Shown piece by piece: positions 167 to 24,060 of a DNA stretch of 63,049 nt. Every line of letters starts with the position of its first letter. The first letter of the stretch is position 1. The notes under the pieces were generated by a model. It searched no databases. It saw only the letters and a program-made list of their open reading frames with translations, and was not told the DNA's origin. Both the position numbers and the translations under genes were made by a program. The DNA comes from Bacteroidota bacterium (lineage in GTDB: Bacteria > Bacteroidota > Bacteroidia > Bacteroidales > FEN-979). Where the stretch lies: assembly GCA_026391715.1 (NCBI GenBank), contig JAPLDO010000072.1, positions 1 through 63,049 of the forward strand, read 5' to 3'.

Positions 167-1357
167 TCAGGATTCCTGTCGGATGATCATGGCTGTTGTA
201 ACGCCGCCGCCGCCGCAGATTGAGGTTAGACAATGGGTTTTGCCTAATCGTTTAAGAATGTGGTAGCCTGTTACAAGAATTCTGGCGCCGCTGATGCCGG
301 TGGGATGACCAAGTGCAATGGAACCTCCGTGAAGGTTCAGTTTTGACCTGTTCCAATTCAACAACTTTTCATTCGATAGTACCTGGATAGCAAAAGCTTC
401 GTTGACTTCAATAATGTCAATATCATCAAGCGTCATCCCGGCATTTCGCAATGCCGCCGGTATGGAATAGGCAGGTCCTTCGCCCATTGTTGACGGATCA
501 ACGGCAAGCTGGGAATATGAAACGATTGAAAACAGAGGAGTAACGCCAAGTTCTGCGGCTTTTTTCCTGTGCGTTAGTACCAACGCTACAGCGCCATCGC
601 TCAATCCACAGGAGTTACCGGCGGTTACCGTTCCGTTTTTCCTGAAAGCAGGTTTAATGGCAGCCATTTTTTCAGAGCTGATTTCATGCCTGATGGTTTC
701 GTCTTTATTGAATAAAACTGGCTGATTTCCGGCAGTTCCCGGTATTTCCACAGGAATTATCTCTTCATCGAACCATCCGTTCTTTTGCGCTGCGGAGGCT
801 TTTTGATGGCTATTAATGGCAAATTCATCCTGATCTTCGCGCGAGATTCCATATTTATCGAACAGATTTTCGGCGGTTTCGCCCATTCCCTGACCAATCA
901 AAGGATCAATGCTGTCGCTCCAGCCATCTTCGAGGGTTTTATTTCCCATTTTAAAACCATCCCATCTTGCGCCTTTCAACAGGTAAGGAATTGAACTCAT
1001 GCTGTCGAATCCGCCGGCGACGACTATATCCGCTTCGCCGAGCCGGATTGATTGAGACGCCATTGCCACCGCCTTCATCCCCGACGGGCAAGCCATATTT
1101 ACAGTTACAACCGGAACGGATGAAGAAATTCCGCCTTTTACCGATGCGGTTCTTGCGGGATTTGGTCCGTTTCCCGCCTGCCGGCAGCTTCCGAGGATTA
1201 CCTCGTCAACCTGAGCGCCGGCGATCGTTGCCCGAACAAGCGCTTCCCTTATAGCGGCTGCGCCAAGGTTATATGAAGCAATATCTTTCAGGCTTCCGCC
1301 AAACCTGCCCATCGCAGTGCGGCAGCAGGAAATTACAACAATATCGTTAAGATCCAT
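167..1357 (-). CDS. Thiolase (acetyl-CoA C-acetyltransferase type)
   Basis: This 396-residue protein has the full length of a degradative/biosynthetic thiolase. The nucleophilic cysteine lies in NMACPSG (C90). The conserved NEAF, GHPTGISGAR and C-terminal CGGGG motifs are all present, so it should be active. Thiolases cleave a 3-oxoacyl-CoA with CoA to release acetyl-CoA. As last gene of the aromatic operon, 12 bases after the short-chain dehydrogenase, it probably cleaves 3-oxopimeloyl-CoA or acetoacetyl-CoA at the end of the benzoyl-CoA pathway. A second thiolase (9591-10859) presumably takes the other substrate; the sequence does not say which takes which. Cytoplasmic, with no signal peptide. 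Confidence 0.9.
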   Translation of the reverse strand: MDLNDIVVISCCRTAMGRFGGSLKDIASYNLGAAAIREALVRATIAGAQVDEVILGSCRQAGNGPNPARTASVKGGISSSVPVVTVNMACPSGMKAVAMASQSIRLGEADIVVAGGFDSMSSIPYLLKGARWDGFKMGNKTLEDGWSDSIDPLIGQGMGETAENLFDKYGISREDQDEFAINSHQKASAAQKNGWFDEEIIPVEIPGTAGNQPVLFNKDETIRHEISSEKMAAIKPAFRKNGTVTAGNSCGLSDGAVALVLTHRKKAAELGVTPLFSIVSYSQLAVDPSTMGEGPAYSIPAALRNAGMTLDDIDIIEVNEAFAIQVLSNEKLLNWNRSKLNLHGGSIALGHPTGISGARILVTGYHILKRLGKTHCLTSICGGGGVTTAMIIRQES

Positions 1358-1369
1358 GATTTCTAATTC

Positions 1370-2113
1370 TTAGATATACTGTCCTCCATCAACCTTTATC
1401 ACTTCTCCGGTAATATGCCTCGACAGGTGGGAACACAGGAAAACAGCGAGGTATGCGATATCTTCGGGCTTGCCGAGCCGTTTCATAACGATTTCATCCA
1501 TTGCGGCGATACGTACGCTTTCATCAGCGTTTTTCATCATTTCCGTTTCGATCAAACCGGGAGCGATAGCGTTAACGTTTACATTGTATTTCCCCAGTTC
1601 CTTCGCCACCGACTTTGTCAAACCAATAATACCTGCTTTAGATGCAGAATAATTTGCCTGTCCGAATTTTCCCCGAAGCCCGTTGATAGAGGTGATATTG
1701 ACGATTTTCCCCGATTGCTGCTCACGGAACAGAGGCGCGACTGCCCGCGTAAAGTTGAAATATCCTTTCAGATTGACCCTTATGACGTCGTCCCATTGCT
1801 CCTCTGTCATTTTCCATATCACGCCGTCGCGGTTGATACCTGCATTGTTTACAAGCATGTCAATCCTGCCAAACCGGTCAATTACTGTTTGCACAGCCTC
1901 GTTAACGGTAGTAAAATCAGAGATGTCGGTATGGATAAAAAATGCGCTTCCTCCTTCATTTTCTATTTCCTGAAGAATTCCAGCGGCATCTTCTGCCGGT
2001 TTGCGGTCAATAATTACCACGTTGGCGCCGCAGCGGGCAAATTCAAGGGAAATTGCAGCTCCGATACCGGAGATTCCGCCGGTTACGATTGCGGTTTTAT
2101 TTTTTAAATCCAT
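1370..2113 (-). CDS. Short-chain dehydrogenase/reductase (FabG/3-hydroxyacyl-CoA dehydrogenase type)
   Basis: A classical SDR of 247 residues. The N-terminal cofactor motif TGGISGIG, the NNAG motif and the catalytic Ser...Tyr-xxx-Lys (YSASK) are all visible, and the C-terminus ends in the FabG-like KVDGG. The family oxidises or reduces 3-hydroxy/3-oxo thioesters with NAD(P)(H). It sits 3 bases after the hydroxybenzoyl-CoA reductase FAD subunit and 12 bases before a thiolase. A likely role is oxidation of 3-hydroxypimeloyl-CoA to 3-oxopimeloyl-CoA, comparable with the SDR found in Azoarcus bzd clusters. That substrate is inferred from context only. FabG-like proteins are hard to tell apart, and acetoacetyl-CoA reduction is an alternative. 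Confidence 0.85.
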   Translation of the reverse strand: MDLKNKTAIVTGGISGIGAAISLEFARCGANVVIIDRKPAEDAAGILQEIENEGGSAFFIHTDISDFTTVNEAVQTVIDRFGRIDMLVNNAGINRDGVIWKMTEEQWDDVIRVNLKGYFNFTRAVAPLFREQQSGKIVNITSINGLRGKFGQANYSASKAGIIGLTKSVAKELGKYNVNVNAIAPGLIETEMMKNADESVRIAAMDEIVMKRLGKPEDIAYLAVFLCSHLSRHITGEVIKVDGGQYI

Positions 2114-2116
2114 ATT

Positions 2117-3052
2117 TCAAATCAATTGTAATTCCTTAAAACTTTGGTTCAGAAAAACAGCGATCATCTCTTTTCTGTAGGCTTTTGAATATGTATCATT
2201 ATCAATAATCCGGGTATTTGATATTGCCTCGCTTATCAGCAAATTCAAATCATTGCCCGCGAAACCATAAACTATCACAGGTTTTGCATGAACGCCGCCC
2301 AAAACAATCCTGATCCTGCCGGTTTTAGTAAGTGAAACAGCCGTGGTTAGAGAGGTAAAGTCGAGAGTTTCCCGTTTCCGCAGTTTTTTATAAACAGACC
2401 TGAATTCTTCATTCCGCGGGATATAAATGGAAGAGAGAATGGCTGTCATTTTTAAATCGCGTGGATGAATGCCATCTCCGGTATAGATACTTTCTAATGG
2501 CTTTAATGAAATATCTTCGCTATCAAAAATCTGGATTTGTGCATTCACGCTAATCAAGGCAATTGCAGTATCGGAAACGAATTTTGAAAAACAACTCTTT
2601 TTTCCTCCCGATGCAAGACAGATATTTCCGTTGCATTTTAAACAACTGCCAGCCGCTTCTCTCCACCATTCGCTTTGATTGTAAAACAAGCAGCGGTTTT
2701 CACACAGCAGGTTTCCGCCAATTGTGGCAGTTTTGCGTATTGTTGGAGATGCCACAGAATTGGCAGCTTCAATAAGCGCCGGGAAGTTGCTGACGATGAA
2801 CGGATGTTTTTTCAGATCATCAAGACAAACTAAAGCTCCGATTTCCAGGAATTTATCGTTGACATGAATTTCCGTTAATGCCGCGATTTCAGAAATATCA
2901 ATTAAAAGAGAAGCGTCGTCATTTCCTTGAAATTTATTGACCATTACATCGGTTCCGCCTGCAATGTAACGAAAAATGCCGGCATGCTTTTCCGCAATGG
3001 AAATCGCATTATCCATTGAAGTGGCTTTGATATAGCTTTTTGCTGAAATCAT
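2117..3052 (-). CDS. hcrB: 4-hydroxybenzoyl-CoA reductase, FAD/[4Fe-4S] (beta) subunit
   Basis: A 311-residue xanthine-oxidase-family FAD subunit. The FAD-binding segment with AGGTD (about residues 31-35) and IGGNL (about 111-115) is present. Right after IGGNL comes a Cys-rich insertion with a CxFYNQSEWWR-like stretch and cysteines at 121, 137, 145 and 154 (also 117 and 140). Ordinary xanthine dehydrogenase or CO dehydrogenase FAD subunits lack this loop. In 4-hydroxybenzoyl-CoA reductase it carries an extra [4Fe-4S] cluster that passes electrons from ferredoxin through FAD to the Mo site. This loop is the main reason for the specific call. The gene lies 6 bases after the fused small/large subunit gene. 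Confidence 0.88.
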   Translation of the reverse strand: MISAKSYIKATSMDNAISIAEKHAGIFRYIAGGTDVMVNKFQGNDDASLLIDISEIAALTEIHVNDKFLEIGALVCLDDLKKHPFIVSNFPALIEAANSVASPTIRKTATIGGNLLCENRCLFYNQSEWWREAAGSCLKCNGNICLASGGKKSCFSKFVSDTAIALISVNAQIQIFDSEDISLKPLESIYTGDGIHPRDLKMTAILSSIYIPRNEEFRSVYKKLRKRETLDFTSLTTAVSLTKTGRIRIVLGGVHAKPVIVYGFAGNDLNLLISEAISNTRIIDNDTYSKAYRKEMIAVFLNQSFKELQLI

Positions 3053-3058
3053 CGTTCG

Positions 3059-5872
3059 CTATTTATTATCTCCAGATGGTTTATTCTCTTTCATTTTTGC
3101 AAGAATATCCTCCGCGCTGATGGGTAACTTTGTTATCCGCACGCCTACGGCATTGAACACTGCGTTGGCAATGGCGGGAATCACCGGATGAATAGCTCCC
3201 TCGCCTGCTTCTTTCGCGCCAAACGGTCCTTCAGGATCAATGGTTTCAATAATGCTGGCATGAATGTCGGGAGTATCAAGCGAAGTTGGAATTTTATATT
3301 CCAGGAAATTATTATTGAACAGCAAACCTTTGTAATATTTCATCTGTTCGCTGATAGCCTGACCGGCGCCCATGTGCCATGAACCTTCCAATTGTCCCTC
3401 CACGGCGAGTGGATTTATCGCTTTTCCGCAATCATGCGCGCCCCAAACATTTGTGACTTTCACAAACCCGGTTTCGGTATCAACTTCCACCTCTGCAATG
3501 CAAGCTCCGAATGAATACGACGGACTTAATCCGGCGCCGGCGCCTTTAAAATCACCGCCAAGTTTTGGAGAGATATATTTACCGCTAACACTCACGGCTC
3601 CTCGCTTTGCAGTTAAAATATCAACGATTTCCATCCATGAAAAATCAACCTTTTTATCGTTGCTGAATACGCGGTTATCGTTAAAATTCAGTTCGTCAGG
3701 ATTCACGTCAACCTTTTTAATAACTGCCGCAACGATCTCCTTTTTCAGGTTCTCAGCGGCGTCCTTTGCGGCATTTCCCGCCATAAATGTTACCCGGCTC
3801 GAATAACTGCCAAAATCAACCGGCGTGAGCAAAGTATCTGCGGCAAGCACAAAAATTTTATCCATTCCGATTCCAAGAACTTCCGCAACGATGATGGCAA
3901 GCATGGTATCGCTGCCCTGCCCAATGTCGCTTGAGCCGGAGGTAATCAGAACCCGCCCGTCGAAATCGAGTTTCAGATGAACCACCGATTGTGGAAGTTC
4001 ATTCCAGAGGATGGGCAACGCGCTGCCGCTGATAAAGAATCCACAAGCCACGCCGAGTCCGTTGCCTTTCGTCAGTTTTCCGATACGTTCTTTCCATCCC
4101 GACTTTTCCATCACTTTTTCCAGCGCTTCGCGGCTTCCGTTTGAAGTAATGCGATACTGTCCTACCGTCAGAGTATTTGAATCAAGGAAATTTTTCAGCC
4201 TTAGCGCGCAGGGATCCATTTTAATGCGCAATGCCAGGTCGTCAATCAATGACTCAACCGCAAACCGCGAATTTACGGCGCCGTGCCCCCGCATAGCTCC
4301 GCATTGGGGCTTATTGGTGTATACGCGATAGGCGCAAAAGCCAAAATTGTCGAGTTTGTATGGCGCCTGCAACAAAACTCCGTTGTAATATGATGTCACC
4401 ACCCCGAAACTTCCATAAGCGCCGCCGTCAATGGCGATAGCGGCATCCAATACCTTGATGGTTCCATCGAAGGAAATACCCATTTCCACTGTCATTTTCG
4501 ATGGATGACGTCCGTGATTTGTGAGGAAGACCTCTTCTCTCGATAAACGCACTCTGACGGGTCTTCCTGTTTTTCGGGCGAGATGTGAAACAATGATTTC
4601 ATGTGGAAAAGGATCGCTTTTACCGCCAAAACCGCCGCCGAGGTAAGGTTTAATAACGCGGACCCGGCTAAGCGGAATCTCCAGCGTTTTGGCGAGGGCG
4701 CGATGCAGATAGTGTGGTACCTGGGTGGCTGTAATTATTGTCAGTCCGTTTTCATCCCAAATCGCTGTGGCTGCATGAGGCTCGGTAAAACCGTGATTAA
4801 CGCCGTCAAACTCAAACAACATTTTGTTTGAAACATCAGCGTTTTTAAGTCCTTCCCGCTGATCGCCGAAACGAAGTTCAGCCTTTTTGTGGATGTTGTT
4901 ATTGAATTTTCCGACGTCATGGATCTTCTCATTATCGCCGGCGTCGTTCAAAGAGTCGTCAATGGTGAAGAATGGCATTAAAAGCTGGTATTTTACCTTA
5001 ATAAGTTTACAAGCCGCTGCGGCAATCTCTTCGCTATCGGCGGCAACGGCGGCAACAATTTCACCAATATAACGAACTTTGTCAACAGCCATTGCCGTTT
5101 CATCCTGAGAGACAGGAAGGACGCCAAACTTAACCGGCAACTCTTTTCCAGTTGCGATGTAGTGAACACCTTGCAAATTCAGCGCGTCCTGAATATCAAT
5201 ATTTTCAATTCTTGCATGCGGGTGAATGCTTCGAAGGAATTTACAATGAAGGGAATTTTTGGCGACAATATCGTCGGCATATTCGGCGGCGCCTCTTACT
5301 TTTTTTTCCGCCTCAATGTAGGGACGGGGAGTTCCAACCGCGCCACCGATCACTTTCAGGGAACCAGGTTTTGCAGGATTATTTCCTTGCTGACCATTAA
5401 TTTCGAGGAGATATTCGGAAACGGCTTCAATTACTTTTTTATAGCCCGTGCATCTGCAAAGATTTCCCGATAATCCCTCTTTAATCTGGCGTATCAGGGA
5501 GTCAGCGCCGTGTTTCATATTGATTGTGGGAGCGAGACTAAGCGCCGTCAAAACCATTCCGGGTGTACAAAACCCACACTGAATTGCGCCTTTTTCAACA
5601 AATTTCTCCTGTAACCTGTGTAATTTCCCATCTTTTGCAAGCGCTTCAATTGTGGTAATTTCAGCATTTTGGCAACGCAATGCAGGGGTGATACAACTCA
5701 ACACAGCATTGCCGTTCATCAATACGGTACAGGCGCCGCAACTTCCCTGTTCACAGCCCGTTTTTGTTCCCGTCAGTCCTGCTTTTTCTCGGATCAGGTG
5801 GGACAACATTTCGTGGTCATCTGCCAGGAGATGGTATTGTTTGCCGTTTATTTTTATAGCGATCTGTTGCAT
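3059..5872 (-). CDS. 4-hydroxybenzoyl-CoA reductase, fused [2Fe-2S] and molybdopterin subunits
   Basis: A 937-residue fusion. Residues 1-160 are a two-[2Fe-2S] small subunit: a plant-type cluster at C40, C45, C48 and C60, and a second at C99, C102, C139 and C141. After a short linker (about 160-175) comes a complete Mo-binding large subunit with GGGFGGK near 414 and the catalytic-glutamate motif GAKEAGEG near 888. The family dehydroxylates 4-hydroxybenzoyl-CoA to benzoyl-CoA reductively, or hydroxylates aromatic or purine substrates. The adjacent HcrB-like FAD subunit with its [4Fe-4S] loop points to the former. Known HcrA and HcrC are separate polypeptides as I remember them, so the fusion is unusual. 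Cytoplasmic. Confidence 0.85.
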   Translation of the reverse strand: MQQIAIKINGKQYHLLADDHEMLSHLIREKAGLTGTKTGCEQGSCGACTVLMNGNAVLSCITPALRCQNAEITTIEALAKDGKLHRLQEKFVEKGAIQCGFCTPGMVLTALSLAPTINMKHGADSLIRQIKEGLSGNLCRCTGYKKVIEAVSEYLLEINGQQGNNPAKPGSLKVIGGAVGTPRPYIEAEKKVRGAAEYADDIVAKNSLHCKFLRSIHPHARIENIDIQDALNLQGVHYIATGKELPVKFGVLPVSQDETAMAVDKVRYIGEIVAAVAADSEEIAAAACKLIKVKYQLLMPFFTIDDSLNDAGDNEKIHDVGKFNNNIHKKAELRFGDQREGLKNADVSNKMLFEFDGVNHGFTEPHAATAIWDENGLTIITATQVPHYLHRALAKTLEIPLSRVRVIKPYLGGGFGGKSDPFPHEIIVSHLARKTGRPVRVRLSREEVFLTNHGRHPSKMTVEMGISFDGTIKVLDAAIAIDGGAYGSFGVVTSYYNGVLLQAPYKLDNFGFCAYRVYTNKPQCGAMRGHGAVNSRFAVESLIDDLALRIKMDPCALRLKNFLDSNTLTVGQYRITSNGSREALEKVMEKSGWKERIGKLTKGNGLGVACGFFISGSALPILWNELPQSVVHLKLDFDGRVLITSGSSDIGQGSDTMLAIIVAEVLGIGMDKIFVLAADTLLTPVDFGSYSSRVTFMAGNAAKDAAENLKKEIVAAVIKKVDVNPDELNFNDNRVFSNDKKVDFSWMEIVDILTAKRGAVSVSGKYISPKLGGDFKGAGAGLSPSYSFGACIAEVEVDTETGFVKVTNVWGAHDCGKAINPLAVEGQLEGSWHMGAGQAISEQMKYYKGLLFNNNFLEYKIPTSLDTPDIHASIIETIDPEGPFGAKEAGEGAIHPVIPAIANAVFNAVGVRITKLPISAEDILAKMKENKPSGDNK

Positions 5873-5878
5873 CCGAAA

Positions 5879-7057
5879 TTAAAAAAATGCGCTTTCCCCG
5901 GTAATGTCAAGTCCGGTGATGAGCAGATGGATATCGTGGGTGCCTTCATAAGTAATAACCGACTCAAGGTTCATCAAATGGCGCATCATCGGGAAGTCGC
6001 CGGTAATGCCCATTGCTCCCAGAATCTGGCGCGACTCCCTTGCAATATCGAGCGCCATTTTTACATTGTTCCTTTTGCACATTGAAATCTGCGCCGGCGT
6101 AGCTCTGTCTTCATTTCTCAAAACCCCCAGCCGCCATGCCAGCAACTGTGCCTTGGTGATTTCGGTAACCATTTCGGCTAACTTTTTTTGTGTCAGTTGG
6201 AAGGCTGCTATAGGTTTGTTGAACTGTTTGCGTTCAAGGGAATACTGAAGAGCTGAATCGTAACAATCCATTGCGGCGCCGATAACGCCCCAGGCGATGC
6301 CGTACCTTGCAGAACTAAGGCAGGTGAGTGGACCTTTCAGCCCTTTGACCCCCGGAAGTAGATTTGCTTTGGGAATTTTTACATTGTCAAAAACAAGTTC
6401 GCCGGTGGAGGAGGAACGCAAAGACCATTTTCTAAGGGTTTCGGGGGAGGTAAAACCCTCCATTCCACGCTCCACTATTAACCCCTTCACGGTTTCAGTT
6501 TCATCTTTAGCCCACACAACAGCGATGTCGCAGATAGGCGCATTGGTGATCCACATTTTGGCGCCGTTCAACAGAAAATGATCGCCCTCGTCGGTGAAAC
6601 GGCTGAGCATGCCTCCCGGATCGGAACCATGATTTGGCTCGGTAAGTCCGAAAGCGCCTATCATTTCGCCAGTTGCCAGCTTTGGCAGGTATTTCCTTCT
6701 CTGCTCTTCAGCGCCGAACTTGAAAATCGGGTACATCACCAGCGAAGATTGAACCGAAGCCATAGAGCGTATTCCGGAATCGCCTCTTTCGAGTTCCTGC
6801 ATTATTAAACCGTAAGAAATCTGGTCTAACCCCGAACCGCCATACTCTGCGGGAATATATGGACCAAAAGCGCCAATTTCGCCCAGCTCTTTTATCAGAT
6901 GCCGCGGAAATTCATGTTTCTGGTTGGCTTCATCAATGATGGGGATCACTGCGCGATTAACCCAGTCGCGGATTGAGCCGCGAATGAGTTTATGTTCGTC
7001 TGTCAGAAGTTCATCCACCTGGTAGTAGTCGGGGGATTTGTATCTTATTGTTGACAT
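5879..7057 (-). CDS. gcdH: Glutaryl-CoA dehydrogenase
   Basis: An acyl-CoA dehydrogenase of 392 residues. The stretch SVQSSL, the FAD motif GLTEPNHGSDPGGM and the C-terminal TYEGTHDIH motif (catalytic base Glu near 371) followed by LITGLDITG match glutaryl-CoA dehydrogenases, not straight-chain acyl-CoA dehydrogenases. The arginine before the SVQSSL motif and the tyrosine next to the catalytic glutamate are both kept, as in decarboxylating enzymes. It should convert glutaryl-CoA to crotonyl-CoA and CO2, passing electrons to an ETF-like carrier not encoded here. It is 34 bases after the hydroxyacyl-CoA dehydrogenase/hydratase fusion and 6 before the hydroxybenzoyl-CoA reductase, within the lower benzoyl-CoA pathway. 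Confidence 0.92.
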   Translation of the reverse strand: MSTIRYKSPDYYQVDELLTDEHKLIRGSIRDWVNRAVIPIIDEANQKHEFPRHLIKELGEIGAFGPYIPAEYGGSGLDQISYGLIMQELERGDSGIRSMASVQSSLVMYPIFKFGAEEQRRKYLPKLATGEMIGAFGLTEPNHGSDPGGMLSRFTDEGDHFLLNGAKMWITNAPICDIAVVWAKDETETVKGLIVERGMEGFTSPETLRKWSLRSSSTGELVFDNVKIPKANLLPGVKGLKGPLTCLSSARYGIAWGVIGAAMDCYDSALQYSLERKQFNKPIAAFQLTQKKLAEMVTEITKAQLLAWRLGVLRNEDRATPAQISMCKRNNVKMALDIARESRQILGAMGITGDFPMMRHLMNLESVITYEGTHDIHLLITGLDITGESAFF

Positions 7058-7091
7058 AGTTTTTTATTAAAGGATTAATTCCGTTTTGCAC

Positions 7092-9554: not shown

Positions 9555-9590
9555 AATAATGCTTTATTGGGTAATTAATATTCCTTTTGC

Positions 9591-10859: not shown

Positions 10860-10860
10860 A

Positions 10861-14830: not shown

Positions 14831-14858
14831 CGTTTCATTTATTTGGTTAATATTTGAT

Positions 14859-14904: not shown

Positions 14905-14916
14905 CGGTCGTTACTT

Positions 14917-15987: not shown

Positions 15988-16013
15988 TTAATGGTTTATA
16001 CTTTGCTTTGGTT

Positions 16014-16973
16014 TTATTTGCATTTTCCCACCCCGTTCTTGCATGAAATGGCATTGACGAGGTTGGTGAGCACCAGGTTGATCGGAGTCTTTATATAATG
16101 TTTCCTCCCATATTCAACAATTTTGCCGTTCATATAGTCAATTTCGGTTTCCCGTTTGTTGATAAGGTCAACGGCAAGAGAGGGCATGTGATTACCGGCG
16201 TTGTTGAGATACCGGATTGCCATTTTGATAAAATTTTCGGGTAACTTAATCTCTTCGGCATTGGCAACCTGGACAGCCTCATAGAGGATTTGTTCGATAA
16301 TTTCCAATGTGTCGGCATTGTTCATTGCCTCCTTCATGGTAAGGCGCGATATTGCGCAAAGAGGGCTGAGGGCGGCGTTAAGAATGGTTTTTTCCCAGAT
16401 TTTATCAATGATTTTGAATGAATTTGCCTGCTCAGTATTCAAACCTACGCTGGTAAGGGTGGCGGCAATCCATTTTGCAAGTTCTTCCTGCGAATCGTCC
16501 ATTGAACCGATATAATTCGGGGGATTAAAGAAGTTTATTGCCGTAACGTTAGGAGCCTGAAGGTTGCCGGCAAAATTGATTACCATTCTGAGAATTGCAG
16601 AGTTCGGAAAATGGCTGAGATATTTTTTTCGAATATCAATACCGTTCTGGGCGCTAAGCAGGAAAACGCTTTTGGTAAGATTTTCTTTTAAAATCTTGAC
16701 AATATGATCAACATGATAATCTTTCACCGCAGAAATCAGAATGTCAAAATCATGCTCAAGCATCTCCTCCACCGAATAATAAACGTGTTTGAAAAATGAC
16801 TTCTTCTCGAGATGATTGACGATTTCAATCCCTTCCTGCATGATTAGGCTTAGTTTTTCCCTGTCGAGGTCGGTAATGGCAACTTCACATCCGGCATGTT
16901 TGAAGTGAACAGCCAATGTTTGTCCAATGGGACCCAATCCTATGATTCCGATTTTCTTGTTCTGACTTTCCAT
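16014..16973 (-). CDS. Ketopantoate reductase (PanE/ApbA)-like dehydrogenase
   Basis: A 319-residue NAD(P)-dependent reductase of the PanE/ApbA family. The dinucleotide motif GLGPIGQT lies at the N-terminus, and an ApbA_C-type helical domain follows from about 190. Family members reduce 2-dehydropantoate or related 2-oxo acids. The setting, inside an aromatic-degradation operon between the acyl-CoA synthetase and had, suggests a role other than pantothenate synthesis. I know of no accepted step in the benzoyl-CoA pathway for such an enzyme. It could act on a cyclic or branched intermediate, or be a bystander. A 162-base gap with a nested inverted repeat lies upstream. Confidence 0.75.
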   Translation of the reverse strand: MESQNKKIGIIGLGPIGQTLAVHFKHAGCEVAITDLDREKLSLIMQEGIEIVNHLEKKSFFKHVYYSVEEMLEHDFDILISAVKDYHVDHIVKILKENLTKSVFLLSAQNGIDIRKKYLSHFPNSAILRMVINFAGNLQAPNVTAINFFNPPNYIGSMDDSQEELAKWIAATLTSVGLNTEQANSFKIIDKIWEKTILNAALSPLCAISRLTMKEAMNNADTLEIIEQILYEAVQVANAEEIKLPENFIKMAIRYLNNAGNHMPSLAVDLINKRETEIDYMNGKIVEYGRKHYIKTPINLVLTNLVNAISCKNGVGKCK

Positions 16974-17040
16974 GGTTTTGAGTTTGGTTTAAAGTTCAAT
17001 TTCAAGCTGAATAATGAAACTATTCAGAAAAGTAATTTTT

Positions 17041-17133: not shown

Positions 17134-17135
17134 TG

Positions 17136-19247
17136 TCAATTATTATAATCATTTTTCGGAGCAGTCTCAATAATAATTCTCGAATCCACAACGCAAATGT
17201 TGCCATCCGATGCAAACAAAGGGTTGAGATCAAGCTCTTTAATATCTGGGAAATCTGTTGCCAGCATGGATATCCGTTGAATTATCTCTGATGTTTTCTC
17301 AATATTAATTCCTTTTTCACCTCTGAATCCCCGGATAAGCGGTTCAGCTTTAATGGAAGTGATCATTTCCAGCGCTTCAGTATCGCTAACGGGGCTGATG
17401 GAAAAAACAACATCTTTCAGTATTTCCACAAAAATGCCACCCAGTCCGAACATGATAATGTTGCCAACTCCATCCACAGCTTTTGCTCCGATTATAAGTT
17501 CCCGTCCCTTGGGAAGAAATTTCTGCACAAAGAACCTGATTCCGTCTCCAAGGTCTCTTTTCATCCTTTCGGCAACATCTTTCGCCTCCCGTTCATTCTG
17601 AATATTTATGGCTACGCCGCCCACATCGCTTTTGTGAATGATTTGTTCGGAATCAGCTTTAATAACAACAGGAAATCCAATCTCGCCTGCCGCGGAAACG
17701 GCGGCTTTAACATCATTCGCAACTTTCCAGGGAGCAACCGGAACTCTGTATGCTTCGAGAATGGTATAAACTTCTGTTGCCGAAAGAATTTCGCGTTTCA
17801 GTGAAATGGCGTTTTCAAGAATTGATTTCACCTTTTCTTTATTTACATCCGTGAAGCGTTTCACCTCTCCTTCTTTCGCCGACCTTATTTCGTTGTACCT
17901 CACAAGCGCGTGGAGAGCCCGCGCGGCTGTTTCGGCAAAATCAAAAGTTGGTATTCCTCCCTCCTTCAGAATTTTTGAAGTCCCCGACCATTTCTGTTTA
18001 TCGGTCATGTAATTACATACAATAGGTTTATTTCCAGCCTTTGCCGCTGCCGCTATCTCACGGGCAACATTTTCGCAGTCAACGAAAGGCGGAGTAACAA
18101 AATTGATGTAAATACTATCAAACTGCGGCTCCTTCATCATAACTTCGAGCGCGCTTTTAAAATGTCCGGGACCGGCGGTTGCAACAACATCCAACGGATT
18201 GCGGATAGAAGCTGATTCGAGCATGGTTCCTTTTAAAACCGAGGCGGCATTTTCTGAAAGAGCAGGAATTTCCATTCCGCAACTCACCAGTTCGTCAATA
18301 GCAATAACTGATGGACCGCCGGTATTGGTAATAATGCCAACTTTGTTGCCTTTTGGAACTGGTTGAGAAGAGAGAGCCACCGCGGCGTGGCATAAATCTT
18401 CCTGACTGCGGAATGTAAGGATTCCGGCTTTTTTGTAAATGAGATCCAGTGAAATGTTGCCAGCCAATCCCCCGATGTGCGACCGGGAGGCTTCCGCTCC
18501 CTTGTCGGTTCTTCCGGCAATAATCGCCAGAATCGGTTTCCGGGAGGTGACCTGCTTTGCCACTGCGATAAATTCCTGCGGGTTTTCAAGGCTTTCAGCA
18601 TAAAGTACAACAGCCTTTGTTTGGTCGTCTTTTCCGTAGTAACTGATGATTTCGGTGATTGATACATCCGACCCGTTTCCATTGGAGGCGTACATTCGCT
18701 GACCGATTCCCATATCATGGAAAGCCTGCATAATTACCGCGCCAACGCCGCCGCTCTGAGCCACTACCGAAATATGACCCGGCTGAGGGAAAGTGAAGGT
18801 GAAGTTGCAATAGGCGTTGAACTCAGGGTCGGAGTTGATGATTCCCTGGCAGTTCGGACCAACAATTCTTATCCCGTATTTCCTCGCTCTTGCAAGGAAA
18901 TCATCTTCCAGAGCCTGTCCTTCGGCGCCCATCTCCTTAAATCCCGCCGTGTTGATAATGATGGCTTTGATTCCTTTCTTCCCGCAGTTTTCCACCTCTT
19001 CAGGTACGAAAGGAGGCGGAATCACAATATGGGCAAGATCAACTTCTCCCGGAATATCAAGCACAGAAGGATAGGCTTTCAATCCGCGAATCTCGTCAAC
19101 CTTAGGATTTATCGGATAAACCGGACCCCTGAACTGGTAATGAAGCAGGTTTTTGATGATTACATTCCCTATTGAAAGCTCTTTCTGCGACGCTCCGATA
19201 AGAGCGACAGCCCTGGGCTTGAATAGCGCGTCAAGATTGTCGTTCAT
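17136..19247 (-). CDS. ADP-forming acyl-CoA synthetase (acetate/aryl-CoA ligase, ACD family)
   Basis: A 703-residue single-chain ADP-forming synthetase: CoA-binding domain (1 to about 130), succinyl-CoA-ligase-like domains with the phosphohistidine motif SRSHIGGLAGN (His near 257), and a C-terminal ATP-grasp (about 490-703). The ATG at 19247 has an AGGAG site 8 bases ahead and overlaps the end of bcrD by 17 bases. The longer open frame from 19367 would run further into bcrD and adds 40 unrelated residues. The family interconverts acyl-CoA + ADP + Pi with acid + CoA + ATP. Here it could conserve ATP from acetyl-CoA, or activate benzoate with ATP to ADP. No AMP-forming aryl-CoA ligase is present in the window. 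Direction and substrate are undecided. Confidence 0.88.
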   Translation of the reverse strand: MNDNLDALFKPRAVALIGASQKELSIGNVIIKNLLHYQFRGPVYPINPKVDEIRGLKAYPSVLDIPGEVDLAHIVIPPPFVPEEVENCGKKGIKAIIINTAGFKEMGAEGQALEDDFLARARKYGIRIVGPNCQGIINSDPEFNAYCNFTFTFPQPGHISVVAQSGGVGAVIMQAFHDMGIGQRMYASNGNGSDVSITEIISYYGKDDQTKAVVLYAESLENPQEFIAVAKQVTSRKPILAIIAGRTDKGAEASRSHIGGLAGNISLDLIYKKAGILTFRSQEDLCHAAVALSSQPVPKGNKVGIITNTGGPSVIAIDELVSCGMEIPALSENAASVLKGTMLESASIRNPLDVVATAGPGHFKSALEVMMKEPQFDSIYINFVTPPFVDCENVAREIAAAAKAGNKPIVCNYMTDKQKWSGTSKILKEGGIPTFDFAETAARALHALVRYNEIRSAKEGEVKRFTDVNKEKVKSILENAISLKREILSATEVYTILEAYRVPVAPWKVANDVKAAVSAAGEIGFPVVIKADSEQIIHKSDVGGVAINIQNEREAKDVAERMKRDLGDGIRFFVQKFLPKGRELIIGAKAVDGVGNIIMFGLGGIFVEILKDVVFSISPVSDTEALEMITSIKAEPLIRGFRGEKGINIEKTSEIIQRISMLATDFPDIKELDLNPLFASDGNICVVDSRIIIETAPKNDYNN

Positions 19248-20079
19248 AATTCTTCTCTCCTGTAAGTTTAAAATGTCTGAAACCTCCCCAGAGGGCGGCT
19301 CCGATTGCGCCGGCATAAATTGAATCCCCGTGCGCCGTGATTTCAAGATTAAGTTTGCTTTCTTCAACCAATTCCTTTACCGCCTGGATCATCCCGATAT
19401 TCATTGCCATACCGCCTGTAAGCGCCACCGGCGATGTTGCCTTGAGCGATGAGAGCAGTTTCACTATTTTATTGGCGATGGAGAGGTGTATCCCTTTTAT
19501 AATATCCGGAGTTGCGACGCCTCTCGAAACCATGTTGATCACGTCGGTTTCGGCTAAAACCGAACATATCCCTGAAGGCGTTTCCGGGTTCACCGATTTC
19601 AGGGAGGTCTCGCCAACATCTTCGATGGCAAGTCCAAGGTAACGCGAAATATTCTCAATAAACTGTCCTGATCCGGAAGCGCACTGCCCCGTCATTTTAT
19701 AATCGAGTACCCTTCCCATTTCATTTATTTTGATAGCTCTAACGTACAAAGCGCCCATGTCAATAACGGTCAAAGAACCGGGTTTCAGGAATGCAGCGCC
19801 TTTCGCATGGGTGGTCATGCTGTAGAAATGTCCCCGCTTGCGCTGGAGCGCCTCGCCTTCGCCTGTAGTGGCAAGGTAAGTAATGTCGCTGCTTTTGAGG
19901 TTGTTCTGCTCCAGCATGAGGTCAATCAGTTGATTGGCTACCATCTCAGGGTTTCTTTTCCTGATCTTCTCGGTCTCCTTGCCAATGATAAACGGCGTTC
20001 CGGAATAGGACATCAGTACAGCTTTGATATTACTACTGCCTACATCAACCCCAAAAGTGTAAATATTTTGATCCTCCAT
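19231..20079 (-). CDS. bcrD: Benzoyl-CoA reductase ATPase subunit D
   Basis: A 282-residue ASKHA ATPase of the BcrD/BadG type. DVGSSNIKAV near the N-terminus is the nucleotide phosphate motif. The cysteines in TGQCASGSGQF (about 132) and GICSVLAETD (about 172) supply ligands for the [4Fe-4S] cluster shared with the other ATPase subunit. It differs from HgdC-type activators in the DMGALYVRAI segment, where they have DIGGQDT, which is characteristic of the D subunit. With BcrA it forms the heterodimeric ATP-hydrolysing module that drives two electrons from ferredoxin onto the aromatic ring. It lies 43 bases after bcrA and overlaps the synthetase start by 17 bases. Confidence 0.93.
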   Translation of the reverse strand: MEDQNIYTFGVDVGSSNIKAVLMSYSGTPFIIGKETEKIRKRNPEMVANQLIDLMLEQNNLKSSDITYLATTGEGEALQRKRGHFYSMTTHAKGAAFLKPGSLTVIDMGALYVRAIKINEMGRVLDYKMTGQCASGSGQFIENISRYLGLAIEDVGETSLKSVNPETPSGICSVLAETDVINMVSRGVATPDIIKGIHLSIANKIVKLLSSLKATSPVALTGGMAMNIGMIQAVKELVEESKLNLEITAHGDSIYAGAIGAALWGGFRHFKLTGEKNYERQS

Positions 20080-20122
20080 CCTTGTATTTTAGATAAATGG
20101 TGAAACCCTTTTTTTCGCTATT

Positions 20123-21499
20123 TTAATTGGTTCTTCCCGCAAACATCGCTCCTCCCAAAGCTCCCATGAATATTGAATCGGCATGGACATTGATCTTGAT
20201 CTCCTTTCCGTAATTCTTCCATACCAGATCAGAAACATATTTAAGCGCCGCCTGATTCCGCGCTACCCCACCGGTAAAAGTAAATTCATTTCGCACGCCT
20301 CCTGAACGCGCAAGCAGCGACATTGCACGCATAACGATAGCGCGGTGAAGTCCGGCTAAAATATCAGAGCGTTTCTGACCCACATTGAGCAATTCCCTGA
20401 TTTCGGCTGCGGCAAAAACAGTGCAGGTGGAGCAGATGTTTACTTCGCTGGTGGCTTCAATTGCAAGAGGTCCGAGTTCGTTAAGCGAAATGTTGAATTC
20501 ATCGGCAATATATCCAAGATACCTTCCGCATCCGGCTGCGCAACGATCATTCATATAAAAACTGGTGACAAGTCCGCGGCTGTCAACCTGAATGGCTTTG
20601 GTATCCTGTCCCCCGATATCCAGAACGGTTCTGGTGTTTGGAAAAACTGCGTGCGCTCCGAAAGCATGGCAAAGAATCTCCGAACGGATTGATTTTTCGG
20701 GGAATGGCAGAAGGGCTCTTCCATAGCCCGTTCCTACCATGTTGGTTATATGTATGTCGAGATTGGCGATAAATCCGATATGACCTTTAAGCGAGTCGTA
20801 AATTTGTTTGTGGTTGCCTTTAAGGAGGTTCAATTCACTGTCGAAACCAATGGCTGTTTCATCCGGCGTGGAATTATCCATATCGGTATATTTATCATTC
20901 AGCAGCTCCATTGCCTGATAAACCAGCTCCCTGAAATCATATTCTGTGAGCTCATTTTCAACATGCGAAATGCTCTTGTCATAAACAAGCATCATAGGTT
21001 CAAAAAACTCTTTTGAAAGACCGTTAACTGCCTGGTTATATTTTTCGCTAACAATATCCCTGAAAAACTGATTCTTTTTGCCAAGGTTGCCGGTAAGATA
21101 TTCATTGAGGATTGTGGGTCCGATTTCATTTACTATGCGTGAAATGTATTCCGAAATCTTCTCTTTTTTTTCACCATTGAAGGCGTCTTCAATCGTATCG
21201 CGGAACTGAACATTCAGCCTGTCGAGTCTTCGTTTGAATTGAAGGTACTGAAAAACCGATTCAATATCGCGGAGGTATCTTCTGTACTCCGGCTTTCGTT
21301 CAATCTCATCTTCCAGCTTCATTTTAAGCAGCGAAAACCGTGCATTGTAGATAGCTTCGAGCCGCGCAATTTCGGTTGCAACGGTATAGTTTGCCCTGGT
21401 ATTGGTAATTCCGCGACCGATAATCCGGTCAGTTTCATCAATGATAATTGCTTTTGAAGTTGTTGATCCAAGATCTATTCCGAGAAAATATTTCTTCAT
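20123..21499 (-). CDS. bcrA: Benzoyl-CoA reductase ATPase subunit A
   Basis: A 458-residue ASKHA ATPase of the BcrA/BadF type. DLGSTTSKAI is at the N-terminus. A long helical insertion (about residues 45-215) separates it from the core, as expected for BcrA and unlike the shorter activators. LDIGGQDTKAI, then NDRCAAGCGRYLG (cluster cysteine near 320) and CSTCTVFAAAE (near 359) follow. With BcrD it forms the electron-activating module of class I benzoyl-CoA reductase. It is slightly longer than the Thauera protein as I remember it. The neighbouring bcrB ends 68 bases upstream. Confidence 0.94.
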   Translation of the reverse strand: MKKYFLGIDLGSTTSKAIIIDETDRIIGRGITNTRANYTVATEIARLEAIYNARFSLLKMKLEDEIERKPEYRRYLRDIESVFQYLQFKRRLDRLNVQFRDTIEDAFNGEKKEKISEYISRIVNEIGPTILNEYLTGNLGKKNQFFRDIVSEKYNQAVNGLSKEFFEPMMLVYDKSISHVENELTEYDFRELVYQAMELLNDKYTDMDNSTPDETAIGFDSELNLLKGNHKQIYDSLKGHIGFIANLDIHITNMVGTGYGRALLPFPEKSIRSEILCHAFGAHAVFPNTRTVLDIGGQDTKAIQVDSRGLVTSFYMNDRCAAGCGRYLGYIADEFNISLNELGPLAIEATSEVNICSTCTVFAAAEIRELLNVGQKRSDILAGLHRAIVMRAMSLLARSGGVRNEFTFTGGVARNQAALKYVSDLVWKNYGKEIKINVHADSIFMGALGGAMFAGRTN

Positions 21500-21567
21500 T
21501 GATGTACATTTTAAATTATACTATTCCTACTCCGTTTACAGGAGAATGACAAAATCTCAAATTAGTT

Positions 21568-22851
21568 TCATTGTCGGGTAAAAATCATCTTCCGCTGTTC
21601 GAGCATCTGAAAAAACGATTCAAGCCGGTTTTTGATATTCGAGTAAGAGAAATACCTCGGATCAACCAGGTCGGATTCGATGAACCCAATGGGAATTTCA
21701 AGTTTTCGTTCCAGTTGCTGCATGATCATCAATTGCCCCGCAGAGAATGAGTTGCAACTCTTGATTGAATTGACGAGGAACCCGTCGGCGTGGTAATCGG
21801 TAATACACTTCGAAAGGAGCTCAACCCGTTGGGGGAGGTTGAGATTAGTGTAGCAGTTCATGCAATATTCTGCCAGACTTTCAAGCGGTTTATCGGGATT
21901 TACGCGGAATCCCATGTCGTAAACCCCGCCAACTTTGGTATAGGACGAGGCGACAATCACGGCTCCCATATCATAAAAGAGTTTCCAGAATTCACGAAAA
22001 TGTGTCCAGTTGGGAGGACCTTCAACAACGAGGCGGAACCTCTCCTCTTCCATTTCGCCTTCGGGGGTAATCGGACCAAGTTTCTTTTCGATGCGGGTAA
22101 GAATCTCTTTATAAAGCTCGGCGTAATAATCAACCGCTTCCGGAGTTCCCCTGAAGCCGCTGTTGATTGGACCAATATAATAAACTCCGGCAAAATAGGC
22201 GTCAATGGGCGATGGGCGGTGTTTGGTGGTATCAAATATCTTTACGATGTAATCCTCAACTTTAGAGGAGTTCCGGAGTATTGACTTTAATTTTTCTTCA
22301 TCATATTTGTTCCCCGAAACCTTTTCCATTTTAGGAATCACCTCCTCTTTCAACTGCTTTACCATATAGGCGGTCATCTGCGGAGTAACCTTGCCTGCCT
22401 CCTGGTAAGGCGTATGAAGCAGCGCTACGGGCACGCCGGGATAAAGCCGTTCCAGAGTTTCGAACCACTTCAGAAATGTAAAGCAACCTGTATAGCTCAA
22501 CAGCAGCAGATCGGGGCTGGGAATTTTTTCTCCGGTTGGACCGATGTTTCCGTTGAGCATCATCCCAACATCGCATTTCACATAAGTGCAAACATCTTCG
22601 GAATGTCCATGTTGTTCGGCGTCGCGGATGTAATCTCCCGATTTTTTACGCATTCCCGATTGCAGTGCGTTGATTTCGGGATATACCGGAAGCATGCCAA
22701 AAGAGAGGATCAGCTCAGAGATGTTGCCGGGAACGAAGGTATATACTACTTTTTTTCCGGTCTCCTTCGCGGCGCTAAGTTCCTTGAAAAGTTGTGTAAT
22801 CATCTCTTTCTGGATGATCATACTACGCTCTTTAGCCACGTCTTTTGACAT
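21568..22851 (-). CDS. bcrB: Benzoyl-CoA reductase catalytic subunit B
   Basis: A 427-residue protein that matches BcrB closely along its length: FVPGN near 40, GHSEDVCTYVK with cluster cysteine C88, SYTGCFTF (C123), VVEGPPNWTHFREFWKLFY near 275-293, and SIKSCNSFSAGQ (C366). These three cysteines bind a [4Fe-4S] cluster, and with BcrC the subunit forms the ring-reducing module. The tight match to the BcrCBAD type, and not to the more distant BzdNOPQ or dehydratase types, supports benzoyl-CoA or a methylated analogue as substrate. The gap to bcrC is 21 bases. Confidence 0.95.
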   Translation of the reverse strand: MSKDVAKERSMIIQKEMITQLFKELSAAKETGKKVVYTFVPGNISELILSFGMLPVYPEINALQSGMRKKSGDYIRDAEQHGHSEDVCTYVKCDVGMMLNGNIGPTGEKIPSPDLLLLSYTGCFTFLKWFETLERLYPGVPVALLHTPYQEAGKVTPQMTAYMVKQLKEEVIPKMEKVSGNKYDEEKLKSILRNSSKVEDYIVKIFDTTKHRPSPIDAYFAGVYYIGPINSGFRGTPEAVDYYAELYKEILTRIEKKLGPITPEGEMEEERFRLVVEGPPNWTHFREFWKLFYDMGAVIVASSYTKVGGVYDMGFRVNPDKPLESLAEYCMNCYTNLNLPQRVELLSKCITDYHADGFLVNSIKSCNSFSAGQLMIMQQLERKLEIPIGFIESDLVDPRYFSYSNIKNRLESFFQMLEQRKMIFTRQ

Positions 22852-22872
22852 ATATTACTCTATCAGCAGGGT

Positions 22873-24060
22873 TTATAATTTGTCGTTTGCCAGGGGTTCG
22901 TCCCAAAGTTTTATTGAGTCGGAAAATGTTCCAACCTGTTCTTTGATGACCTTAAACTGTCCGGTATTTTCACTGAACAGGAAACTGATGAACCGGATAT
23001 TCTTATCGTTGCACTCCTTTTGCAGGATCGGGTGATCGAGCAGGGCAGGGTCGCAGAAACTGGGCGCTGCAAAAATGACTCCGTCAACCTTCCGCTGCTG
23101 AATAAGTTTCAGCAGCCGCGCCTCTTTCGGATTGCCAACATCGTAAACTGAAGAGGAGAAGGTACTTTTTTCGAGATATGCGCCGGTAATGGATTTCAGT
23201 GGATCTGCGGTGTTTGTTTCAATATCTCCCTGTATCCACCTTGCCCCCAGAAGGAAATCGTCTTCAACAATATAGCACCCGGCAAGCTCAATGGTGCGGA
23301 TAAGTCCTACCGGGGGCTGTTCACAGAAGGCGCCTATTACAAGTACGCGAATTTTATCCATCGGGCTTCCGGTCTCCACACCAATCAACCCGATTACCTG
23401 CGTGAGAATCTCGTTGTGTTCTTCCACCGGAATTACATAACCTGCGCGAACTATATGATAAACATCTGCGGCAGACAATCTCCAGGGAAACTCCTGACGA
23501 ATATCATAAAGCTGTTTTATCAGATTGCGGTTTATATTGAACAAACCGATGGAATGGTTAAGCCGTTGCGGAGTTACTTCAACGCCATTCAGCTTATAAA
23601 CCTCATCGAGAACGGTTTGTAGCTCATACCGGTAAAATTCGCCTCCGATATTGGAAACAAAGTTTTGCGGGAAGTCGAGATACTTTACAAATTTACCTTC
23701 GCCTAATAACTGGAACATGCCGGAAAGATTCCGGATAACATCGCAAATGGAAGGAAAAATGAATCCGTCAAAATCTGCAAAATGCTTATCAAGGGCAAGC
23801 TCTACGATACTCCTCGGAATATGGCAGATATACGACTGGTAATAAGCGTCGCCTTTGATGATCAGTTTTTTATCGCCGCCTCCCAGAATGCCAACTGCCA
23901 GTCCATTCGCAGCATGTATAATTTCTCGAGGAAAATAAACAGGCATGTGTCCGATAAGAATACGGTCTTTCTCCTGTGATTTCCATGCCCTGGCTCTTTT
24001 AAAAGAGAGATCGAAAGCCAGCTTCTCACATTGCGTAACTATTCCATTAAGTGTGTTCAA
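22873..24060 (-). CDS. bcrC: Benzoyl-CoA reductase catalytic subunit C
   Basis: The first gene of the aromatic operon, 395 residues. IGHMPVYFPREIIHAA near 36-51, GGGDKKLIIKGDAYYQSYIC (C79) and FPSICD (C106), then APSFCDPAL (C336), match the BcrC/BadD catalytic subunit, with three cysteines for its [4Fe-4S] cluster. With BcrB it makes the heterodimer that binds the aromatic thioester and reduces it to cyclohexa-1,5-diene-1-carbonyl-CoA. It is followed 21 bases later by bcrB. The 288-base space upstream, back to the protease gene, holds the likely operon promoter. Confidence 0.94.
   Translation of the reverse strand: MNTLNGIVTQCEKLAFDLSFKRARAWKSQEKDRILIGHMPVYFPREIIHAANGLAVGILGGGDKKLIIKGDAYYQSYICHIPRSIVELALDKHFADFDGFIFPSICDVIRNLSGMFQLLGEGKFVKYLDFPQNFVSNIGGEFYRYELQTVLDEVYKLNGVEVTPQRLNHSIGLFNINRNLIKQLYDIRQEFPWRLSAADVYHIVRAGYVIPVEEHNEILTQVIGLIGVETGSPMDKIRVLVIGAFCEQPPVGLIRTIELAGCYIVEDDFLLGARWIQGDIETNTADPLKSITGAYLEKSTFSSSVYDVGNPKEARLLKLIQQRKVDGVIFAAPSFCDPALLDHPILQKECNDKNIRFISFLFSENTGQFKVIKEQVGTFSDSIKLWDEPLANDKL

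Follow-up and report, generated by a model that had tools for sequence, protein, structure and literature searches.

The window considered here is the whole of a 63,049-base contig (C241) from the assembly of a Bacteroidota bacterium (5.02 Mb in 256 contigs, completeness 98.99%, contamination 1.75%). Its subject is an operon for the anaerobic degradation of benzoyl-CoA, which occupies 24060 to 167 of the minus strand and includes a set of genes around a third protein of the HGD-D family, hereafter HGDD3. Eighteen open reading frames (ORFs), selected from the ORF list, make up the operon; the largest gap between neighbors is 162 bases (16973/17136), and the remaining gaps are below 90 bases or are overlaps. 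The original prediction had described 17 same-strand genes with mostly short gaps, and the one-strand train indeed holds, with 18 ORFs. Its gene list also stands for bcrCBAD, dch, had, oah and the lower pathway, but it left four genes unnamed: an ADP-forming acyl-CoA synthetase, a PanE-type dehydrogenase, HGDD3 and its activase. Since the end of thiolase 1 adjoins the contig end, only 167 bases away, the operon may be longer than seen. Genes were named using Pfam and curated NCBIfam cut-offs and, for six proteins, the nearest solved structures, as follows.

22873..24060, minus strand: bcrC, benzoyl-CoA reductase subunit C, 395 amino acids (aa), TTG start; TIGR02263 442.7 bits, cut-off 421.15
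21568..22851, minus strand: bcrB, catalytic subunit B, 427 aa; TIGR02260 642.8 bits, cut-off 486.55
20123..21499, minus strand: bcrA, activase subunit A, 458 aa; TIGR02259 425.4 bits, below the cut-off of 578; PF01869 over cut-off
19231..20079, minus strand: bcrD, activase subunit D, 282 aa; TIGR02261 320.0 bits, cut-off 312.85
17136..19367, minus strand: ADP-forming acyl-CoA synthetase, acdAB type, alpha and beta fused; NF045493 531.9 bits, below the cut-off of 1300
16014..16973, minus strand: panE-type dehydrogenase, 319 aa; TIGR00745 170.1 bits, cut-off 141.35
14917..15987, minus strand: had, 6-hydroxycyclohex-1-ene-1-carbonyl-CoA dehydrogenase; TIGR03201 443.9 bits, cut-off 338.65
13748..14830, minus strand: oah, 6-oxocyclohex-1-ene-1-carbonyl-CoA hydrolase; TIGR03200 582.4 bits, cut-off 464.45
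12954..13727, minus strand: dch, cyclohexa-1,5-dienecarbonyl-CoA hydratase; top family TIGR03189 219.2 bits, below the cut-off of 292.5
11683..12969, minus strand: HGDD3, third HGD-D protein, 2-hydroxyacyl-CoA dehydratase-like, 428 aa; PF06050 203.5 bits
10861..11640, minus strand: act3, ATP-dependent activase, presumably of HGDD3, 259 aa; TIGR00241 153.2 bits, cut-off 125.4
9591..10916, minus strand: thiolase 2, start probably internal; TIGR01930 294.8 bits, cut-off 240.55
7092..9554, minus strand: 3-hydroxyacyl-CoA dehydrogenase/enoyl-CoA hydratase fusion, 820 aa; PF02737 and PF00725, hydratase models at 515-764
5879..7057, minus strand: glutaryl-CoA dehydrogenase, probably of the decarboxylating type; 426.8 bits to 3d6b versus 237.4 to 3mpi
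3059..5872, minus strand: 4-hydroxybenzoyl-CoA reductase-like alpha fused to [2Fe-2S] gamma; TIGR03194 835.1 bits, below the cut-off of 994.55; 612.6 bits to 1rm6_A
2117..3052, minus strand: 4-hydroxybenzoyl-CoA reductase-like beta (FAD), Cys-rich insert; TIGR03195 200.5 bits, below the cut-off of 404.55
1370..2113, minus strand: short-chain dehydrogenase/reductase (SDR), 3-hydroxyacyl-CoA dehydrogenase candidate; FabG/PhaB-type models
167..1357, minus strand: thiolase 1, adjoining the contig end; TIGR01930 439.0 bits, cut-off 240.55

Judging from these family scores, the operon almost certainly encodes a class I benzoyl-CoA pathway. BcrB, BcrC, BcrD, Oah and Had indeed exceed their NCBIfam equivalog cut-offs, and bcrCBAD brings together two HGD-D subunits and two BcrAD-type activase subunits, the composition of class I reductases. 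The scores confirm the original prediction of a class I pathway in a Bacteroidota, and BcrB and BcrC, which match curated families over cut-off, are not the unrelated dehydratases that would have refuted it. Cys 88, 123 and 366 of BcrB, conserved in 82 of 82 rows, are cluster ligands by position, with equivalence judged by motif; passages of one study give Cys95/128/380 as the catalytic-subunit cluster cysteines in BzdO (PMC11971306). BcrC keeps Cys 79, 106, 246, 262 and 336 in 78/78 rows. The presence of both Had and Oah equivalogs speaks for ring opening by the 3-hydroxypimeloyl-CoA (Thauera-type) branch. The acyl-CoA dehydrogenase is closest, by nearest solved structures, to glutaryl-CoA dehydrogenases, a non-decarboxylating type being disfavored (427 bits versus 237 for 3mpi, which we take to be a non-decarboxylating glutaryl-CoA dehydrogenase), and two dehydrogenases and two thiolases are on hand for 3-hydroxypimeloyl-CoA and 3-hydroxybutyryl-CoA. 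The FAD subunit of 4-hydroxybenzoyl-CoA reductase has a Cys-rich insert for an extra [4Fe-4S] cluster. That of the window holds six cysteines inside the insert, with a spacing found in 17 of the 22 FAD subunits listed; three (L064, L065 and L077) have one cysteine fewer, and those of L029 and of a cut ORF in L072 do not match the spacing. Some scores weigh against the assignment: BcrA, Dch and the alpha and beta subunits of 4-hydroxybenzoyl-CoA reductase stay below cut-off, their own family still being the top match, and the gamma part reaches 147.4 bits against a cut-off of 257.8, with glyceraldehyde- and xanthine-dehydrogenase models slightly higher. The nearest solved relative of the synthetase is the 4-hydroxybutyrate-CoA ligase 8wzu; its true start is probably internal, six homologues being 693 aa long. 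No ferredoxin gene was noticed in the ORF list of the window, whose 90 aa minimum would miss small ones.

On paper, the operon would close a pathway leading from 4-hydroxybenzoyl-CoA and benzoyl-CoA to acetyl-CoA without oxygen. 4-Hydroxybenzoyl-CoA would undergo a molybdenum-dependent reductive dehydroxylation, and the class I enzyme BcrCBAD would carry out the ATP-driven reduction of the ring, after which Dch, Had and Oah would lead to 3-hydroxypimeloyl-CoA. Beta-oxidation and thiolysis, a decarboxylating glutaryl-CoA dehydrogenase and a second round would then yield acetyl-CoA.

Further genes that touch on these functions were seen in related stretches. A second type of molybdenum hydroxylase, 41-44% identical to the alpha-gamma fusion of the window, occurs in L147:6683-10433, L142:17071-19890 and L029:3194-6898; its alpha subunit in G397, a congener of the window, scores 948.4 against 994.55 with the 4-hydroxybenzoyl-CoA reductase model, and in L029 the pair, with an FAD subunit that has no Cys-rich insert, is flanked by panE and act3. 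Upstream of bcrC, genes resembling (by eye) those for MocA- and XdhC-type molybdenum cofactor factors recur in 17/85 and 14/85 stretches, respectively (e.g., L060, L075, and L100), which fits maturation of a molybdenum hydroxylase. A 2-oxoacid:ferredoxin oxidoreductase alpha-like gene (by eye) near the operon in L062:1-2118 is a possible source of reduced ferredoxin.

The operon is native to this Bacteroidota: in tetranucleotide use it resembles the remainder of the contig, and it recurs in congeners. Tetranucleotide correlations between 8-kb operon pieces and the rest of the contig were 0.75-0.95, the rest compared with itself giving 0.82-0.94; the operon gave 0.80-0.94 with stretches of two other contigs of its own genome and 0.55-0.82 with three foreign stretches. 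Moreover, Por_Secre_tail proteins share the contig with the operon, and other genomes of the genus and family carry it. A binning or assembly chimera could be suspected in a draft, metagenome-like assembly of 256 contigs where the operon reaches a contig end. We rejected it as having a negligible probability, in view of the tetranucleotide use, the sorting-tail proteins on the contig, the same operon in several assemblies of relatives, and a copy in L062 beside ribosomal-protein-like genes (by eye). The chimeric join between the operon and type IX secretion system (T9SS)/Bacteroidota genes, which the original prediction had named as refuting it, was thus not found by tetranucleotides, sorting-tail proteins or congeners. 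Three very large proteins of the window (29749-36066, 36358-43431 and 43687-47721, minus strand) carry Por_Secre_tail and carboxypeptidase-regulatory-like domains. In L062:16363-20563, from a Bacteroidetes bin, the ribosomal-protein-like genes, recognized by printed sequence starts, lie a few kb from the bcr operon.

Around bcrCBAD, the same set of genes recurs: a CoA ligase, HGDD3, PanE, Act3, a thiolase or dehydrogenase/hydratase, had, oah and dch, with the hydroxybenzoyl-CoA reductase and the SDR often divergent from it; in the clade of the window, the order is acdAB, panE, had, oah, dch, HGDD3, act3. Among 58 eligible class I loci, with the complete bcr quartet and 5.5 kb or more of sequence behind bcrD and scored with bit thresholds of our own setting, HGDD3 was found in 51, PanE in 55 and the third activase in 45, several of the misses being loci that stop within it. 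Of 85 stretches, 43 have only an AMP-forming ligase, 19 only an ADP-forming one, 6 both and 17 neither; many of the 85 are cut, and five come from three genomes. In many loci, the AMP-forming ligase lies between bcrD and the dehydratase. PanE and Act3 are joined in a single ORF of about 600-650 residues (once 1,021) at 35 loci, PanE being without Act3 in its ORF at 25, and a Pfam scan of one fused protein detects both domains. Such a fusion argues that dehydrogenase, ligase and dehydratase serve one reaction sequence. K195, N199 and E277 of PanE, which we take to be catalytic residues, are kept in at least 95% of 60 rows. In L142 (12612-14696), as in L143, L094 and L101, a large protein lies behind an unusual thiolase, itself behind act3; in L142 and L143, this thiolase shares 25-28% identity with thiolase 1, and the large protein, which has no Pfam match at 1e-5 and no NCBIfam match at 1e-20 in L142, may replace the dehydrogenase/hydratase fusion. 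A class-III-like aminotransferase occurs in two of the 85 stretches.

We propose that this cassette would act as a converter of 2-oxoacids to enoyl-CoA. PanE would reduce an arylpyruvate to an aryllactate, the ligase would form its CoA ester, and HGDD3, as a putative single-subunit radical dehydratase fired by ATP via Act3, would remove water to give cinnamoyl- or coumaroyl-CoA, which ordinary beta-oxidation would bring to benzoyl-CoA or 4-hydroxybenzoyl-CoA. Because the cassette lies inside a benzoyl-CoA/4-hydroxybenzoyl-CoA operon, phenylpyruvate and 4-hydroxyphenylpyruvate are the obvious 2-oxoacids, and the cassette may feed further aromatics, such as those from the amino acids phenylalanine and tyrosine, into the pathway. 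The dehydratase chemistry, homomeric state and substrates put forward here are predictions from sequence.

HGDD3 is probably a dehydratase-type enzyme needing no HGD-D partner. Its Cys 53, 102, 140, 311 and 368 are present in 55/55 rows, with one deviating row in a looser set of 56. In a hidden Markov model (HMM) alignment read by eye, Cys 102, 140 and 368 correspond to BzdO Cys95, 128 and 380, S55 to Ser44 and E73 to Glu65; G57 stands at BzdO Trp46 and V143 at BzdO His131, a position at which HadB has alanine according to passages of PMC11971306. Cys 311 falls opposite a cysteine in two double-cubane cluster protein (DCCP) sequences. The structural model (mean predicted local distance difference test, pLDDT, 85.9) is closest to HadB (3o3m_A; template modelling score, TM, 0.83 by query and 0.89 by target length), then to MbdO and BzdO, and then to DCCP. 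Double-cubane homodimers, benzoyl-CoA reductase (BCR) heterodimers, 2-hydroxyacyl-CoA dehydratase (HAD) heterodimers and a one-domain desulfidase are the kinds of HGD-D proteins described in passages of the same study (PMC11971306), and a lone HadB-like subunit with five cysteines would seem to fit none of them. HGDD3 shares three cluster cysteines and an adjoining activase gene with the heterodimeric 2-hydroxyacyl-CoA dehydratases; since the second, non-identical HGD-D subunit is wanting in G415, G422 and G428, it is not filed as one of them, only as probably working like one. Assignment to DCCP was rejected (NF040772, 46.5 bits versus a cut-off of 350; five invariant cysteines, not six as in the BzdN double cubane). 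The same comparisons bear on another reading, that HGDD3/Act3 is a reductive enzyme acting on aromatic CoA esters (a 2- or 3-hydroxybenzoyl-CoA dehydroxylase or a special ring reductase), with PanE acting on a side product: the second-best solved relative is the 3-methylbenzoyl-CoA reductase MbdO (161.6 bits), Gly at position 57 instead of BzdO Trp46 would leave room for a ring, and molybdenum hydroxylases lie nearby. We consider it unlikely, as HadB is closer by both sequence and model, no second HGD-D subunit stands alongside HGDD3 in three genomes, and the fusion with a 2-oxoacid-reductase-type domain fits dehydration better.

In an even sample of 395 genomes from the phylum, Oah was over cut-off in four (two of them single-contig), and in none of 14 controls; the HGDD3 profile at E 1e-100 retrieved four genomes, from four families and identical to those with Oah, a coincidence expected by chance about 1 in 1e9 under independence, by our own arithmetic, which ignores descent. 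In one of them (G160), HGDD3 and oah lie on different contigs (C76 and C37). HGDD3 follows Oah, not the reductase, and this co-occurrence ties the cassette to aromatic degradation. It also bears on a cassette serving a non-aromatic 2-hydroxyacid (lactate, 2-hydroxyglutarate or a branched-chain one) as an electron sink or side pathway, as might be expected from known 2-hydroxyacyl-CoA dehydratases, which use such substrates, and from PanE-type enzymes, which reduce several 2-oxoacids. With HGDD3 in 0/391 of the other genomes at E 1e-100, we regard such a role as quite improbable.

Among 61 relatives, 12 carry HGDD3 and nine of these 12 carry BcrB. The other three (G415, G422 and G428; genus g174) hold oah, dch and HGDD3, gathered on a 3.3 kb contig in G415, and HGDD3 is their sole HGD-D protein, which implies that it needs neither BcrC nor a classical beta subunit; G397, G407, G059 and G294 have exactly three HGD-D proteins, BcrB, BcrC and HGDD3. 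G422 and G428 also hold act3 and, in front, acdAB, panE and had, with a divergent bam cluster in place of bcr, and in G397 bcrC and bamB lie back to back (L148), so that both classes are present. The class II enzyme, with BamB of the tungsten aldehyde oxidoreductase (AOR) family and adjoining bam-type electron-transfer genes, was thus recognized in G397, G422 and G428, in the relatives by tblastn. BamB of G397 reaches 1252.3 bits over 649 residues to Geobacter BamB 4z3w, and those of G422/G428 are 83-85% identical to it, the G428 match crossing one stop at its end; the bam row of G397 comprises AFOR, CCG/Fer4, flavin/Fer4, FlpD and 2Fe-2S genes, the BamC-like one being without a Pfam match. 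At 1e-100, BamB was found in 3/61 relatives and not in the own genome of the window. In two genomes of genus g174 (L142, L143, L170, and L171), the same lower pathway is preceded by class II only. These genomes also bear on the view that HGDD3/Act3 serve the class I reductase as spare or accessory components, either an alternative catalytic subunit with BcrC or a maturation factor, as their position near bcrD in many loci and their common superfamily could suggest. Two genomes with class II bam genes keep HGDD3 as their sole HGD-D protein, which makes this view very improbable, and a role as BcrC partner or class I accessory is largely ruled out by the genomes without class I. The gene identities, their order, their co-occurrence and the fusion are read directly from the sequences, and so is the independence of HGDD3 from a class I reductase or a beta subunit.

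Several observations nevertheless weigh against the proposed converter and a partner-free HGDD3. G425, from an HGDD3-bearing genus, has no HGDD3 and no HGD-D protein at all. G415, G422 and G428 are 87-96% complete, and it is unlikely but possible that a partner gene was missed in all three. The own genome of the window holds a further HGD-D pair on contig C199, so that partner independence rests on the relatives. HGDD3 distances correlate less with those of BcrB (r 0.542, n 55) than BcrC distances do (0.905, n 75), 0/999 shuffles reaching either value; 7/58 eligible loci fall below the HGDD3 threshold, although L048 and L050 among them do show a match; and G415, also without BcrB, has no BamB match, its ring reductase being missing or unassembled. 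As for the substrate, the nearest solved PanE relatives reach at most 89 bits, no aminotransferase was recognized by eye among unassigned ORF families in at least 3 of the 85 stretches, and no cassette gene is specific for an aromatic 2-oxoacid. On balance, we give the favored reading as a whole, a native class I pathway with the cassette as an arylpyruvate to enoyl-CoA converter, an even chance of being right; arylpyruvates as the cassette substrates are a possible assignment that we hold with a little less than even confidence, and a dedicated anaerobic route from phenylalanine/tyrosine to benzoyl-CoA, common to bacteria of the Fibrobacterota-Chlorobiota-Bacteroidota (FCB) group and working with either benzoyl-CoA reductase class, is conceivable but rather doubtful. 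The C199 pair (G000:C199:14808-17967, L153) is accompanied by an activase; one of its proteins scores 173.9 against a cut-off of 350, with the double-cubane family on top, and the second has no NCBIfam match at 1e-20.

The class I operon is not isolated within the Bacteroidota phylum. A scan of species genomes with the BcrB alignment gave 255 relatives. Among the 80 best of these, which were retained, 75 are titled Bacteroidota, Ignavibacteria or Chlorobiota, the remaining five being KSB1, Calditrichota, Armatimonadetes and two unnamed bacteria. According to their titles, every one of the 80 is a bin and none bears a cultivated species name; the ranking favors Bacteroidota because the query was built from Bacteroidota rows. 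The earlier statement that no cultivated Bacteroidota is known with a class I pathway is not contradicted among these best 80 of 255, but the isolation within the phylum that it implied was too strong, given the many Bacteroidota bins. Expression of peptidases, peptide uptake and anaerobic benzoyl-CoA degradation was reported for a Flavobacteriales metagenome-assembled genome, in passages that are silent on reductase class (PMC8099898). BcrB was over cut-off in 9/61 relatives, including the own genome (genus 5/19, rest of the family 4/18, other families of the order 0/24), and in 0/14 control genomes. On a BcrB tree of 82 rows, labeled by titles only and with the "Bacteroidetes" rows a mixed bag, the taxon labels need 28 changes, for a minimum of 5 and a shuffled mean of 40.0, a value as low being reached in 0/200 shuffles. 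The labels are thus clustered, yet far from one origin per group; as regards the acquisition by transfer that had been considered possible, this scatter is consistent with exchange inside FCB groups. In a plasmid collection, BcrB gave 9 records (at most 24.4% identity in the table), HGDD3 11 (at most 27.0% in the ten best listed), the PanE-activase fusion 337, none covering 80% of the query, and Oah 1,516, all below 60%, the six listed being at most 34.9% and, where annotated, enoyl-CoA hydratases or BadI. No published description of a class I operon across Bacteroidota or of the HGDD3/PanE-activase cassette was found among the listed titles and abstract starts of open-licence PubMed Central (PMC) articles.

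The gene content of the own genome fits an anaerobe that is fermenting or syntrophic and tolerates or uses traces of oxygen. The syntrophic aromatic degrader proposed earlier is allowed by six [FeFe]-hydrogenase matches, but a COX1-FixO (cbb3-type) oxidase gene fusion is also present. In that genome, no Rnf was over cut-off, and neither was a benzoate-CoA ligase (best 266.0 versus 375.25 bits, on C164). A second COX1 gene (G000:C26:19381-20683; L119, L120, and L155) is split in two, one piece containing a TGA, which reflects either an assembly error or a broken gene. A near relative (L036) is titled as from a fen, and the names of several other relatives presumably refer to northern and Swiss lakes. 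The best-known anaerobic degraders of aromatic compounds belong to the Pseudomonadota, the Desulfobacterota and some other bacteria and archaea. A conserved operon in many Bacteroidota bins suggests that a large group of polymer degraders possibly mineralizes aromatic rings. In the sample searched (4/4, 0/391), HGDD3 is as sharp a marker of the pathway as Oah, and it points to a possible entry route. With class I and class II exchanged before one unchanged lower pathway, the ATP cost of ring reduction can be studied in close relatives.

Compared with the class I pathway of Thauera and Magnetospirillum, the four reductase genes, Had, Oah, Dch and the lower pathway are the same, as judged from family scores; the differences here are the other phylum, an ADP-forming ligase, the fused alpha/gamma of 4-hydroxybenzoyl-CoA reductase and the extra HGDD3, Act3 and PanE. 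The last three are not known from Thauera clusters. The gene order in Thauera is given as bcrCBAD in passages of PMC12521323. With HadBC/FldBC, HGDD3 has in common three cluster cysteines, an active-site Ser and Glu, an ATP-dependent activase and the HadB fold, but it stands without a second HGD-D subunit in three genomes, has the extra invariant Cys 53 and 311, and has a ligase nearby instead of a CoA transferase, its activase often being fused to PanE. With DCCP it shares a single kind of HGD-D subunit with an activase, and Cys 311 aligns, but it is far closer to HadB. The bcrABCD genomes of Krumholzibacteriota, as described in passages of PMC10936416, likewise show the class I pathway in an FCB phylum that is uncultured; according to those passages, no bcr or bam genes were detected in the 37 FCB reference genomes of that study, whereas many Bacteroidota bins with bcr were found here among the best 80 of 255 BcrB relatives. 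Finally, for the sulphate-reducing benzene degrader BzS1, passages of PMC13416013 propose, as a hypothesis with candidate unassigned dehydratases, a route from phenylpyruvate to benzoyl-CoA; its order of intermediates (2-oxoacid, 2-hydroxyacyl-CoA, cinnamoyl-CoA, benzoyl-CoA) is the one proposed here, where, in contrast to what those passages describe, the steps would be served by a dedicated, conserved cassette.

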